Origin: Candidatus Gastranaerophilales bacterium
Lineage (GTDB): Bacteria; Cyanobacteriota; Vampirovibrionia; Gastranaerophilales; Gastranaerophilaceae
Assembly (NCBI GenBank): GCA_944325145.1
Contig: CALYDL010000009.1
Location: 1 to 64,000, forward strand
Direction: 5' to 3'
Length of the DNA: 64,000 nt
The notes beneath the pieces were generated by a model. It was not told where the DNA came from. It did no database searches and was given only the letters and a program-made list of their open reading frames with translations. The translations under genes and the position numbers were made by a program. Within the stretch, counting starts at the first letter, position 1. Every line of letters begins with the position of its first letter. Below are positions 28,191-53,447 of the stretch, piece by piece.

Positions 28191-28277
28191 TTCAAATTTA
28201 TTTTTTGTAACAAAGCTTTGAAAAAGCTTAATATTCATGGTAATAATTGAATATATCCATTTTTTAAGATGATATAT

Positions 28278-28907
28278 ATGGAAAATTCAAAAGAAAAAAT
28301 CGAACACAACGTAAAATTACGGCAGTATTTGGGACTTATTAATAAAATTGCCAAGGTGGAGTATAAATCAATGGCAGCTCAACATTTAATAGAATTTGAT
28401 GAGCTTGTTAACATTGGTATACAAACTGTTGATGTTTTATTTTTATCACATGAAGGAAACAAAGAAGAATATAACGAATCTTATTTAACAACCGCAATAA
28501 AATGGGCAATAAGAAACGAATTAAGGCGCCGTTACCGCTGGCATGGGGTTAAAATTCACAGCGAAAGCGGCATAGAACCTGATAAAAACGAATTAAGAGA
28601 AGCAATTTATAAAACCATTTTATCAACCGATGAAATGCTAGAAAATGAAAAGCCGTTTGAAGTTAAAGACCAGAGAAAAAACCCCGAAGAAACCTGCGAA
28701 TTTAACCAAATGTCCATTATGCTTCGAAAAGCAATAGCAGAACTTCCAAAGCGTGAAAGAGAATTGATTGAAGCAAAATTTTTCAAAGAAAAAAAACTAA
28801 TGGAACTATCTGAAGAATTTTCAATTTCGGCTTCAAGAATTTCAAGAATTATAAAATCCGGCCTTGATAAAGTTCGTGATTATTTAATTCAAAATGATTT
28901 AACATAA
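28278..28907 (+). CDS. RNA polymerase sigma-70 family factor
   Basis: A 209-aa alternative sigma factor. Region 2 is at about residues 30-90 (FDELVNIGIQ, then AIKWAIRNELRRRYRW, the -10 recognition helix); region 4 is at 150-205 (LPKRERELIEAKFF and an HTH with SISASRISRIIKSGL). A poorly conserved linker stands in place of region 3, reminiscent of FliA/WhiG-like or general group 3 factors. An in-frame ATG lies 9 nt upstream; neither has a good SD. No anti-sigma gene is adjacent. Confidence 0.88.
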   Translation: MENSKEKIEHNVKLRQYLGLINKIAKVEYKSMAAQHLIEFDELVNIGIQTVDVLFLSHEGNKEEYNESYLTTAIKWAIRNELRRRYRWHGVKIHSESGIEPDKNELREAIYKTILSTDEMLENEKPFEVKDQRKNPEETCEFNQMSIMLRKAIAELPKRERELIEAKFFKEKKLMELSEEFSISASRISRIIKSGLDKVRDYLIQNDLT

Positions 28908-28976: not shown

Positions 28977-30023
28977 ATGAAAATAAAACCTGAAAATTAT
29001 AATTATCACCAGCCTGAATTTAAGGGAATATACAACAATAAAGCTTTTTTAAAGGGTTTAGAAACAATATCTGACCATGGAACAAGCTTTGTTGCGGGTG
29101 TTTCATTGGCTTCTTCTTTGTTTTTAAGGCCTCTTGCGATACAAATGGCACCAAGCGTTGAAAAAGAAAATAAAAAATATGCAGGCGTAAATTCCGTTGC
29201 ATCGGGAATTGCAAGATTTTTAACAGTTGAAGCAATTGCACTTCCCATTGAAAATGCAATTAAGAATATAGATAAAAACCCGAATAAATTCTTAAAAAAA
29301 GAAACAATGGATAATTTAAAAAACGGGGCAAAAAGCCTTGTTGAATCAAAAGATTATAAATTTGCAACGCAAGTTTTAAAATTGGGGGTAAATTTTGTAA
29401 CAGCAATACCGAAATCAATGCTCACAATTGCTCTCATTCCAATTATTATGGATAAATTTATAAATAAAAAAAATAAAAATTTACCTGATACCCCTTTAAA
29501 AAAAGAAAATTATGACCCTGTTTTTTCACCATTTTTTAAAGGAAACATTCAAAATAAAATTTCAAGCGGTGTAGGAAAAATTTTAGATATTAAAGAAGTT
29601 CAGGGGCTTATTCAAAAATACAGCAAAAACGACCAAAACATTGCAAGAAATATTTCCATGGCAACGGATGTTTTGTTAACTTCAGCCTTTGCAATACAAA
29701 CAAAGAAAAATAAAAAAATCGAAGAAGAAAGAAAAAAACCGCTTATTTTAAATAATTTAATTTCAACAGGAATAACGCTTTTGGGGGGTTACACAATTGA
29801 TAATTTAATTCAAAAAGGCGGAAAAAATTTCCTTGAAAAATTCAAAAATGCGAACAAAAACAACCCCAAACTTCCAAAATACATTGAAGGATTAAACATT
29901 TTAAGGCCTACTCTTATTTTTGCAGGGTTATATTACGGAATTTTGCCCATCGCTTCAACATTTTTGGCGGAAAAAACCGACAAACTAACTAAAAAATCAA
30001 GCTTTCAAGGAAATATTTCCTGA
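28977..30023 (+). CDS. Hypothetical protein with N-terminal FxG motif, cluster member 1
   Basis: A 348-aa protein I do not recognise. It starts with a polar ~14-aa leader ending in EFKGIYN (Phe15-x-Gly17). It has two similar hydrophobic units: PSVEKENKKYAGVNSVAS plus a long apolar stretch (about residues 60-100) and IEEERKKPLILNNLIST plus apolar stretch (about 245-275), with a basic linker. Both resemble segments in the two minus-strand genes that follow, so all three look like one family. Its last 27 nt overlap the convergent neighbour. It has no SD and no signal peptide. Confidence 0.75.
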   Translation: MKIKPENYNYHQPEFKGIYNNKAFLKGLETISDHGTSFVAGVSLASSLFLRPLAIQMAPSVEKENKKYAGVNSVASGIARFLTVEAIALPIENAIKNIDKNPNKFLKKETMDNLKNGAKSLVESKDYKFATQVLKLGVNFVTAIPKSMLTIALIPIIMDKFINKKNKNLPDTPLKKENYDPVFSPFFKGNIQNKISSGVGKILDIKEVQGLIQKYSKNDQNIARNISMATDVLLTSAFAIQTKKNKKIEEERKKPLILNNLISTGITLLGGYTIDNLIQKGGKNFLEKFKNANKNNPKLPKYIEGLNILRPTLIFAGLYYGILPIASTFLAEKTDKLTKKSSFQGNIS

Positions 30024-30488
30024 TTTTTCCCCTTTTTGTTCTTTATTATATGAAGCAATTTTTGTTGCAAACAAAGGCGTTAAAATTCTTTTTGCACCAA
30101 TCGAAGCTAAAACAAGTGTTGAAACCGCATTAAATGCAGCTTTTGCATTTTTTAATTCTTTGGGGCTGTCTTTTAGCGATTTAAAAAGTTTATCAGTAAA
30201 GAAACTTTGGAATTTTTCACTTGAAACAATAAACCCTGCGCCAATTTGAGTTACTGCAGTTGCAGCACAAGTTGCAGCATCCATTTTTGCTGTGAAATTT
30301 TTCTTTTCTTTGGGAATTTCATCATTATTTAAAGTGTTTTTAACTCTTAGAGCATATGCAAAAACGTCTTTTGAAACGCTTGTGATTAACAAAGTTCTTG
30401 CTAAAAATTTAGGGTCTGTTGCACTTTTTACAATATGATTTTTAACAATGGAAGAATTTGCAATGCTTGAAGCAACTTTTTGTATCAT
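29997..30488 (-). CDS. Hypothetical protein, cluster member 2
   Basis: A 163-aa protein of unknown function. It contains the cluster's recurring unit, IPKEKKNFTAKMDAATCAA followed by an apolar stretch (about residues 78-115), and a second apolar segment near 130-145. It overlaps the upstream gene by 4 nt (ATGA), indicating coupled translation, and its 3' end overlaps the opposing cluster member 1. It lacks the FxG leader. Confidence 0.7.
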   Translation of the reverse strand: MIQKVASSIANSSIVKNHIVKSATDPKFLARTLLITSVSKDVFAYALRVKNTLNNDEIPKEKKNFTAKMDAATCAATAVTQIGAGFIVSSEKFQSFFTDKLFKSLKDSPKELKNAKAAFNAVSTLVLASIGAKRILTPLFATKIASYNKEQKGEKSGNISLKA

Positions 30489-31285
30489 AAAGCGCCTCCT
30501 TGTTTATTTTGTATCGGAACAGCACCTTTTGCGTGGTTTAAAAAGGTTTCAATATTTGGCATTTTAACCATTTTTGAAGGATTTTTTGCAGCCCTTTTTT
30601 CATAAATTTTATTCATTATTTTTGGGTGAATATAATTTTCAATTGCGCACAAGAATGGCGTTAAAAGAAGAGCGGCAACAAAACAAATTCTATTTTGAAG
30701 GTGAAATTTATTTTCGTGGGCATGTTCAAAATTTTTAAATGATTTAATAGCAGCCGTTTTAATTTTATCATCCGCACCATCTAAAATTTCAACAATGTCT
30801 TCAGCTGCTTTTTTTGTATATCCGCCATCTTTAATACTTGTTAAAAAATCTTTGGATTTTTCTTTTATTTTAGGTGTTTTATCTGCAATTTTTTCAAATG
30901 TATCTATAAATTTTTCTCTTTGAAGTTTTTCATTATAAGAAAAACCTTTTCTTGCATTTTTGGCTTTATCAAAATAGCCTTTATCGGCTAAATCTCCCAC
31001 TATTTTTGAACCCGCCATTAAAACGGGAACTTCTAAACCCAATTGAATAAAAGCTGCAACGGGGTTTTTAAAAGCCGAAAATTCTTTATTTTCTTTTGGC
31101 TCACTGCTTGCAAGCATAATAACTGCAGGCACAACAACGGCTTTTCCCAAAAAATCGCATGCGATACTTGTGCCTTCGCCTATATTACCTGCTTTTGCAA
31201 ATTTTTTTGCTATTTTTTCGGATAGTTTTGAAGCGCCCGTAAAATTTGTTTGATTATTAATGCTTATGTTATTTTGAACTTTCAT
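30485..31285 (-). CDS. Hypothetical protein with N-terminal FxG motif, cluster member 3
   Basis: A 266-aa protein of unknown family. The leader MKVQNNISINNQTNFTG has Phe15-x-Gly17, matching cluster member 1 and the helicase at 58667. The segment SSEPKENKEFSAFKNPVAAF plus apolar stretch (about residues 60-100) aligns by eye with member 1; a Cys-containing hydrophobic helix near 200-220 may span a membrane. The end is basic and contains NHAKGAVPIQNKQGG. Confidence 0.72.
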   Translation of the reverse strand: MKVQNNISINNQTNFTGASKLSEKIAKKFAKAGNIGEGTSIACDFLGKAVVVPAVIMLASSEPKENKEFSAFKNPVAAFIQLGLEVPVLMAGSKIVGDLADKGYFDKAKNARKGFSYNEKLQREKFIDTFEKIADKTPKIKEKSKDFLTSIKDGGYTKKAAEDIVEILDGADDKIKTAAIKSFKNFEHAHENKFHLQNRICFVAALLLTPFLCAIENYIHPKIMNKIYEKRAAKNPSKMVKMPNIETFLNHAKGAVPIQNKQGGAL

Positions 31286-53188: not shown

Positions 53189-53447
53189 CCGTGCCACTGT
53201 CTATCGTTGCTATTCAATAAGCATTTCACTTTTCATATCTCCATTTTTTACCAAGTACCCGTTAACATCATCTTAGTGCTGCTATGTTTCCATCCTGACA
53301 CGGTTCGAAGCATAATCGCCACTTAAATAAAAAATATCAACAATATTCAAAGTTCAATAACAAACCAAATAGCCCCTCATAACAGGCTCTGCACCCTGCG
53401 TAAGCTTCAGGTCAAGAGTTCGCAACGCCCCGTGGAGCACGGCACAT
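53189..53447 (-). ncRNA. ffs: Signal recognition particle RNA, large bacterial type
   Basis: The minus strand contains the SRP core of helix 8, GTCAGGATGGAAACATAGCAG with GGAA and AGCAG loop bases (rc of 53276-53299), inside a long rod. The 5' part (GTGCCGTGCTCC, GGGGCGTTGCG, about 53370-53446) matches an Alu domain, and the ends pair GTGCC / GGCAC. The ~258-nt length indicates the large form with Alu domain, as in Bacillus and clostridia. A TAAAAT box at 53451-53456 (minus strand) lies about 5 nt before the 5' end. It binds Ffh for membrane protein targeting. Confidence 0.87.

Follow-up and report, generated by a model that had tools for sequence, protein, structure and literature searches.

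The locus described here raises the question of what three neighbouring genes of a gut bacterium, here called A, B and C, are for, and with which cellular system they work. They lie in the window, by which we mean the whole 64,000-nucleotide stretch of DNA analysed, part of a genome of 1.88 Mb. The relatives of this genome go by the labels Candidatus Gastranaerophilales, Galligastranaerophilus and Melainabacteria, and are non-photosynthetic gut cyanobacteria. A first-pass annotation made from the letters alone had placed two coupled genes on the minus strand and a third gene converging on them, and both their coordinates and their arrangement are confirmed (Table 1). C and B are coupled by an ATGA overlap (30485-30488), the GGAGG ribosome-binding site of B is embedded in the 3' end of C, and A converges on B with an overlap of 27 bases. 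We take all three to be real genes because their sister-species orthologues, at 76-87% identity, keep intact open frames. For C and its relatives, a reading of the C-terminal Gly-Gly as a processing signal was weighed and set aside; in the window the ribosome-binding site of B accounts for these residues.

Table 1. Features of the A/B/C locus, with positions in the window and residue numbers in the encoded proteins.
Feature	Position	Strand	Basis
Sigma-70-family gene adjoining A; a neighbour judged to be outside the system	28269..28907	+	Matches to sigma-70 models in Pfam and NCBIfam
Gene A, 348 aa, fused two-unit helical protein	28977..30023	+	Open frame, homologues; associated with PnuC in other genomes
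N-terminal F-x-G of A (F15-K-G17)	29019..29027	+	Present in only ~34 of 75 homologues
N-type unit of A (residues 18-172), homologous to C	29028..29492	+	hhalign 94.5%; 99.8% with larger profiles
Loop EKENKKY (residues 62-68), K/E/N-rich, joining helices 35-56 and 63-100 in the N unit of A	29160..29180	+	Structure model
F-x-G of the low-confidence linker of A (F187-K-G189), just before the second unit	29535..29543	+	Conservation
C-type unit of A (residues 187-340), homologous to B	29535..29996	+	hhalign 97.1%; 99.1% with larger profiles
Loop EEERKKP (residues 249-255), K/E-rich, joining helices 206-244 and 250-292 in the C unit of A	29721..29741	+	Structure model
Gene B, 163 aa, single C-type unit	29997..30488	-	Open frame, homologues
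K/E loop of B (PKEKKNF, residues 59-65)	30294..30314	-	Open frame, model of B
Gene C, 266 aa, single N-type unit, upstream of B	30485..31285	-	Open frame, homologues
K/E/N loop of C (PKENKEF, residues 63-69)	31079..31099	-	Sequence
N-terminal F-x-G of C (F15-T-G17)	31235..31243	-	Sequence

The claim that no described family fits these proteins is borne out by every search made. Pfam and NCBIfam scans with E values up to 1 gave no match of A, B or C above a curated cut-off, the best scores being weak chance matches (MnhB, 12.5 bits vs 22.5; DUF7399, 15.7 vs 27), and in the same scans none of the three matched the PnuC/NMN_transporter entries PF04973 and TIGR01528. PHROG yielded no significant match (E at least 0.006), PADLOC no model match with E up to 0.1, the PDB sequences no match of substance, and viral contigs no relative of A. 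A phage or mobile origin was thus rejected for want of viral relatives of A and PHROG matches, and a role in anti-phage defence for want of a PADLOC match. In the searches made the family is found only in the Gastranaerophilales: a B-type profile searched against 386 genomes of the phylum matched 145, every one from the window's order and 142 from its family, and the A profile matches some family member in 361 of the 383 genomes of the order. These members fall into several paralogue groups, namely A, short C-B pairs, long C-B pairs, split A-like pairs and fusions of 450-700 aa, one of which is present in the window's own genome. An open frame of 24,078 residues in a relative is an apparent artefact, lying in a 20-kb contig stretch that is open in six frames and that we take to be masked.

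The three proteins had also been judged, by eye, to be mutually related. As single sequences inside the window they show marginal similarity (6 bits for A with B, 5 bits for A with C). Comparison of family profiles aligns residues 1-178 of A with C (hhalign probability 94.5%, E 7.5e-8) and residues 183-348 with B (97.1%, E 6e-11), where no reversed or block-shuffled control exceeds 4%; with larger profiles the N-terminal half of A reaches 99.8% against C and the C-terminal half 99.1% against B, where shuffles reach up to 22%. The relationship thus stands for A with C and for A with B, and is only likely for B with C. Since its N-half is homologous to C and its C-half to B, A is, at the level of profile comparison, the fused form of the C-B pair. 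Between the two types of unit, the hhalign probability is 37% with all sequences and 71% with single-unit proteins, compared with at most 1.5% in shuffles (score 37 vs at most 19), and the K/E loops are in register where the two types align. An ancient duplication, likely though unproven, would have given N-type and C-type units one common ancestor. The arrangement recalls split and fused two-half membrane proteins, in which related units likewise occur as adjacent genes or as one chain, but A, B and C match no such family in sequence or fold.

Gene order in other species points to a partner for A. In 80 named A loci, corresponding to 80 sampled species, neighbour clustering finds a gene of ~230 aa divergently beside A in 68, at a median distance of ~56 bases, and the other neighbours vary, leaving this gene as the sole constant one. 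It encodes PnuC, the transporter of nicotinamide riboside (vitamin B3), as judged from its matches to PF04973 (E 1e-41), to TIGR01528 (125 bits vs a cut-off of 42) and to the solved PnuC structure 4QTN (E 1.6e-30); A, which has no PF04973 or TIGR01528 match, is the genetic partner of this transporter and not a member of its family. In four genomes (G010, G020, G032 and G035) A and then pnuC are co-directional, which shows that the link persists when the orientation changes. In the window genome pnuC lies on a separate contig (C12) and a sigma-factor gene precedes A, an arrangement common only to the closest relatives; these genomes keep both A and pnuC despite the different contigs. Two lineages, the window's subgroup and that of loci L117, L121, L133, L136, L142 and L168, have a C-B pair adjoining pnuC or A; in other lineages such pairs occur without these genes.

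This comparison does not support the first-pass suggestion that the genes act together with the adjacent sigma factor. A and its relatives could on that reading belong to a membrane anti-sigma or stress system, and the sigma-70-family gene does lie just 69 bases upstream of A in the window, but a gene of that size occupies the place only in the window's closest relatives, in which pnuC is elsewhere, and in 68 of 80 other species it is pnuC that lies upstream of A, on the opposite strand. With an anti-sigma domain also absent from the Pfam and NCBIfam matches, we reject the partnership on comparative gene order and regard it as barely credible.

Several other elements were recorded. No riboswitch was found beside pnuC among six loci examined, which showed only tRNAs. 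In the window, an L10 ribosomal leader (Rfam RF00557; 28045-28170, minus strand) precedes rplJ-rplL just upstream of the sigma-factor gene, and a bacterial large SRP RNA (Rfam RF01854) lies at 53189-53442 on the minus strand. One A-pnuC pair occurs in a record titled Muribaculaceae (JAMPCZ010000060.1, locus L171), most likely a misbinned or mislabelled contig.

The presence of A across genomes follows that of PnuC closely. Among 38 relatives, the 22 with a strong A orthologue are exactly the same 22 that have PnuC. Across the 383 genomes of the order, with E below 1e-40 taken as a strong A match and in counts tallied by hand from tables, 276 have both, 5 have A only (G027, G249, G406, G473 and G577), 8 have PnuC without a strong A (G366, G397, G466, G472, G522, G534, G566 and G567, with G472 cut by a contig end) and 94 have neither (Fisher p 6e-73, phi 0.91). 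Joint presence is in excess within genera too (P ~5e-25 over 14 polymorphic genera), and joint absences occur in 14 genera that otherwise have both; examples of joint absence are G006, a member of the window's genus, and G028, a congener of G033, in which both are present. As a control, genomes of the genus g32 have strong B matches and neither A nor PnuC, and G002 and G003 carry A and PnuC and no B. B-type genes thus do not track PnuC, and the pattern is therefore specific to A. Consistent presence with PnuC and linkage to its gene, the two properties by which we would recognise a PnuC accessory protein, are both found for A in the 383 genomes and in its divergent neighbours. We know of no described accessory protein of PnuC.

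The same data could be read more sparingly, with A and pnuC as co-inherited neighbours that share a bidirectional promoter, A acting elsewhere, for example in membrane organisation. The short divergent spacing and the occurrence of A paralogues without PnuC are in keeping with this, and the joint losses could in part represent single deletions of two adjacent genes. We nevertheless consider it rather unlikely, since the window genome and its close relatives keep both genes on different contigs, other lineages have the pair co-directional, and the remaining neighbours vary freely.

What kind of protein A might be is suggested by its predicted structure. The model (pLDDT 86.7, pTM 0.78, from 75 sequences) is all-helical, with helices 22-33, 35-56, 63-100, 108-115, 125-141 and 143-162 in the N-terminal half, then a poorly predicted linker, then helices 190-204, 206-244, 250-292 and 299-347 in the C-terminal half; each unit has three hydrophobic stretches. 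The model of B is weak (pLDDT 67.6) and shows the helix order of an A unit (26-54, 60-88, 91-101, 109-154). The K/E/N-rich stretches that had drawn attention to the locus, described there as being followed by a run of apolar residues, indeed occupy corresponding positions in all four units (Table 1), but are not simply followed by such a run: each is the loop that links the first two long hydrophobic helices of its unit, with a third hydrophobic helix beyond. At the loops of A, E64, N65, K66 and Y68 are conserved in the N unit, and I248 and K253 are invariant in the C unit. Charged and proline residues are also conserved inside the hydrophobic helices of A (R51-P52, K146, D231 and R310-P311). 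Lysine and arginine are about equally numerous on both predicted sides (~24 vs 22 per protein if the N-terminus is inside), and because they favour neither side, six plain transmembrane helices are not established. The A/B/C family is probably membrane-associated. The envelope idea of the first pass is partly retained; nothing found speaks for a compartment, and the data point instead to a nutrient transporter.

The six hydrophobic helices of A, within which charged and proline residues are conserved, would also suit a protein that is itself a transporter, be it an exporter or an energising half, acting in the pathway of PnuC without touching it. Yet A belongs to no transporter family by sequence, its charge pattern is unlike that of a normal polytopic protein, and its model matches no fold clearly above background in the PDB and viral fold libraries compared, from which a matching family may be missing (Foldseek best E 0.19). 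Set against known helical membrane folds, among them the rhodopsin/GPCR-like fold and the ABC exporter transmembrane domain, it reached a VIA Z of at most 5.0, with an rmsd of 9.6 over 162 residues, as is typical of helical bundles. We hold a transporter role for A itself to be very unlikely.

The explanation that best accounts for the whole, and to which we lean with some reserve, is that A is a dedicated partner of PnuC and that B and C are a two-gene version of it with another client. A would be built from two related units of three helices each, bundled into a hydrophobic protein that probably sits at the inner membrane and most likely contacts PnuC or an enzyme that receives its substrate; such contact may stabilise, regulate or couple PnuC uptake. 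B and C would provide the same architecture from two genes, C supplying the N unit and B the C unit, made together through their translational coupling, and they probably pair like the two halves of A to serve some client that is not PnuC. The data establish the units, their homology, the confinement to one lineage in the searches made and the genetic link between A and PnuC, whereas insertion into the membrane, contact of A with PnuC, pairing of C with B and an effect on transport are inferred. None of the databases searched contains the protein family, and as a system it is best seen as a partner, particular to this lineage, of a known transporter. The family resembles other uncharacterised lineage-specific families of uncultured bacteria in being confined to one order in our searches and in lacking a database family, and differs from them in that one of its members has a strong, specific functional partner.

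The metabolic setting of this partnership is unusual. PnuC is generally taken to work alone as a facilitator, its substrate being retained in the cell once NadR has phosphorylated it, and the PnuC superfamily includes carriers of thiamine, riboflavin and deoxynucleosides. None of the 38 relatives, 22 of which have PnuC, carries NadR above the curated cut-off, the control being detected in 2 of 14 reference genomes. The reaction of NadR is described in PMC7221760. NadC is present in 36 of the 38, and with no NadR above cut-off the route of nicotinamide riboside and the transported substrate are uncertain: imported nicotinamide riboside may follow another route, or this PnuC may carry another vitamin. 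That PnuC is hardly ever found here without another helical protein, unrelated to it, in genomes with no NadR above cut-off, suggests that vitamin B3 uptake is run or controlled differently in these common gut bacteria, which are mostly known from metagenomes, and gives a protein group unnamed in databases a testable role. A search of the open literature for Melainabacteria with PnuC returned no paper. In four genera (loci L270, L275, L276 and L278) a split A-like pair directly follows nadB-nadC and precedes a HEAT-repeat gene, queC and a DUF366 gene; in G016 (L279) such a pair stands beside a similar queC block from which nadB-nadC is missing. Because this link is absent in other genera, we do not count it as main evidence.

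A short motif, F-x-G, recurs in the family. In A, F187 is found in 74 and G189 in 72 of 75 homologues, in a linker that is otherwise unconserved and predicted at a pLDDT of ~50; F-x-G also precedes the first helix in C and many split units, and 28 of 48 N-type proteins have it in their N-terminal part. It further appears near the N-termini of other proteins of these bacteria. In ~1.25 Mb of sequence from the window's genome, the first 80 residues of open reading frames contain [SN]F[polar]G at 2.3 times the rate of later residues (32 vs ~14 expected, p 6e-4), a modest test with a motif chosen after inspection of the data, and the reversed motif shows no enrichment in the first 80 residues over the same sequence. 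These patterns are hints of a lineage-wide short linear motif.

On this basis the family might instead consist of lineage-specific membrane scaffolds, in which F-x-G brings metabolic or transport proteins to a membrane site, A serving PnuC and its paralogues other clients. The nearly invariant F187 and G189 fit such a role, as do the paralogue groups of a single genome with their different conserved neighbours (nadB-nadC, cdaA, or glutathione synthetase-like and DAHP synthase-like genes). Against it, shared gene order between related genera may by itself account for some of these neighbourhoods, the N-terminal F-x-G of A occurs in under half of homologues, and binding through F-x-G is putative; we find the idea quite unlikely. 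Its widest form, in which the units are a lineage-wide scaffold family that places chosen transporters and enzymes at membrane sites through F-x-G, with A and PnuC as one instance, seems to us distinctly improbable. We continue to prefer the reading of A as a dedicated partner of PnuC.

Further observations concern the motif and the other paralogues. [SN]-F-x-G is found in many otherwise unrelated proteins behind a short polar N-terminal stretch, often with an M-K/R/Q/N-V/I start; examples from the window's own genome include L199:14060-16087, L225:1394-4018, L239:6687-9353 and L217:2152-3789. The long C-B pair is part of a conserved block (L240-L247, L249-L251, L253 and L254) that includes the CdaA diadenylate cyclase and usually a 7TM-HD protein, both typical of c-di-AMP turnover. 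In the same genome as the window, a paralogue of 699 aa (L177:3613-5712, minus strand) has both units repeated and several F-x-G motifs; its flanking genes, in congeners too, are a glutathione synthetase-like ATP-grasp gene on one side and a DAHP synthase-like gene on the other.
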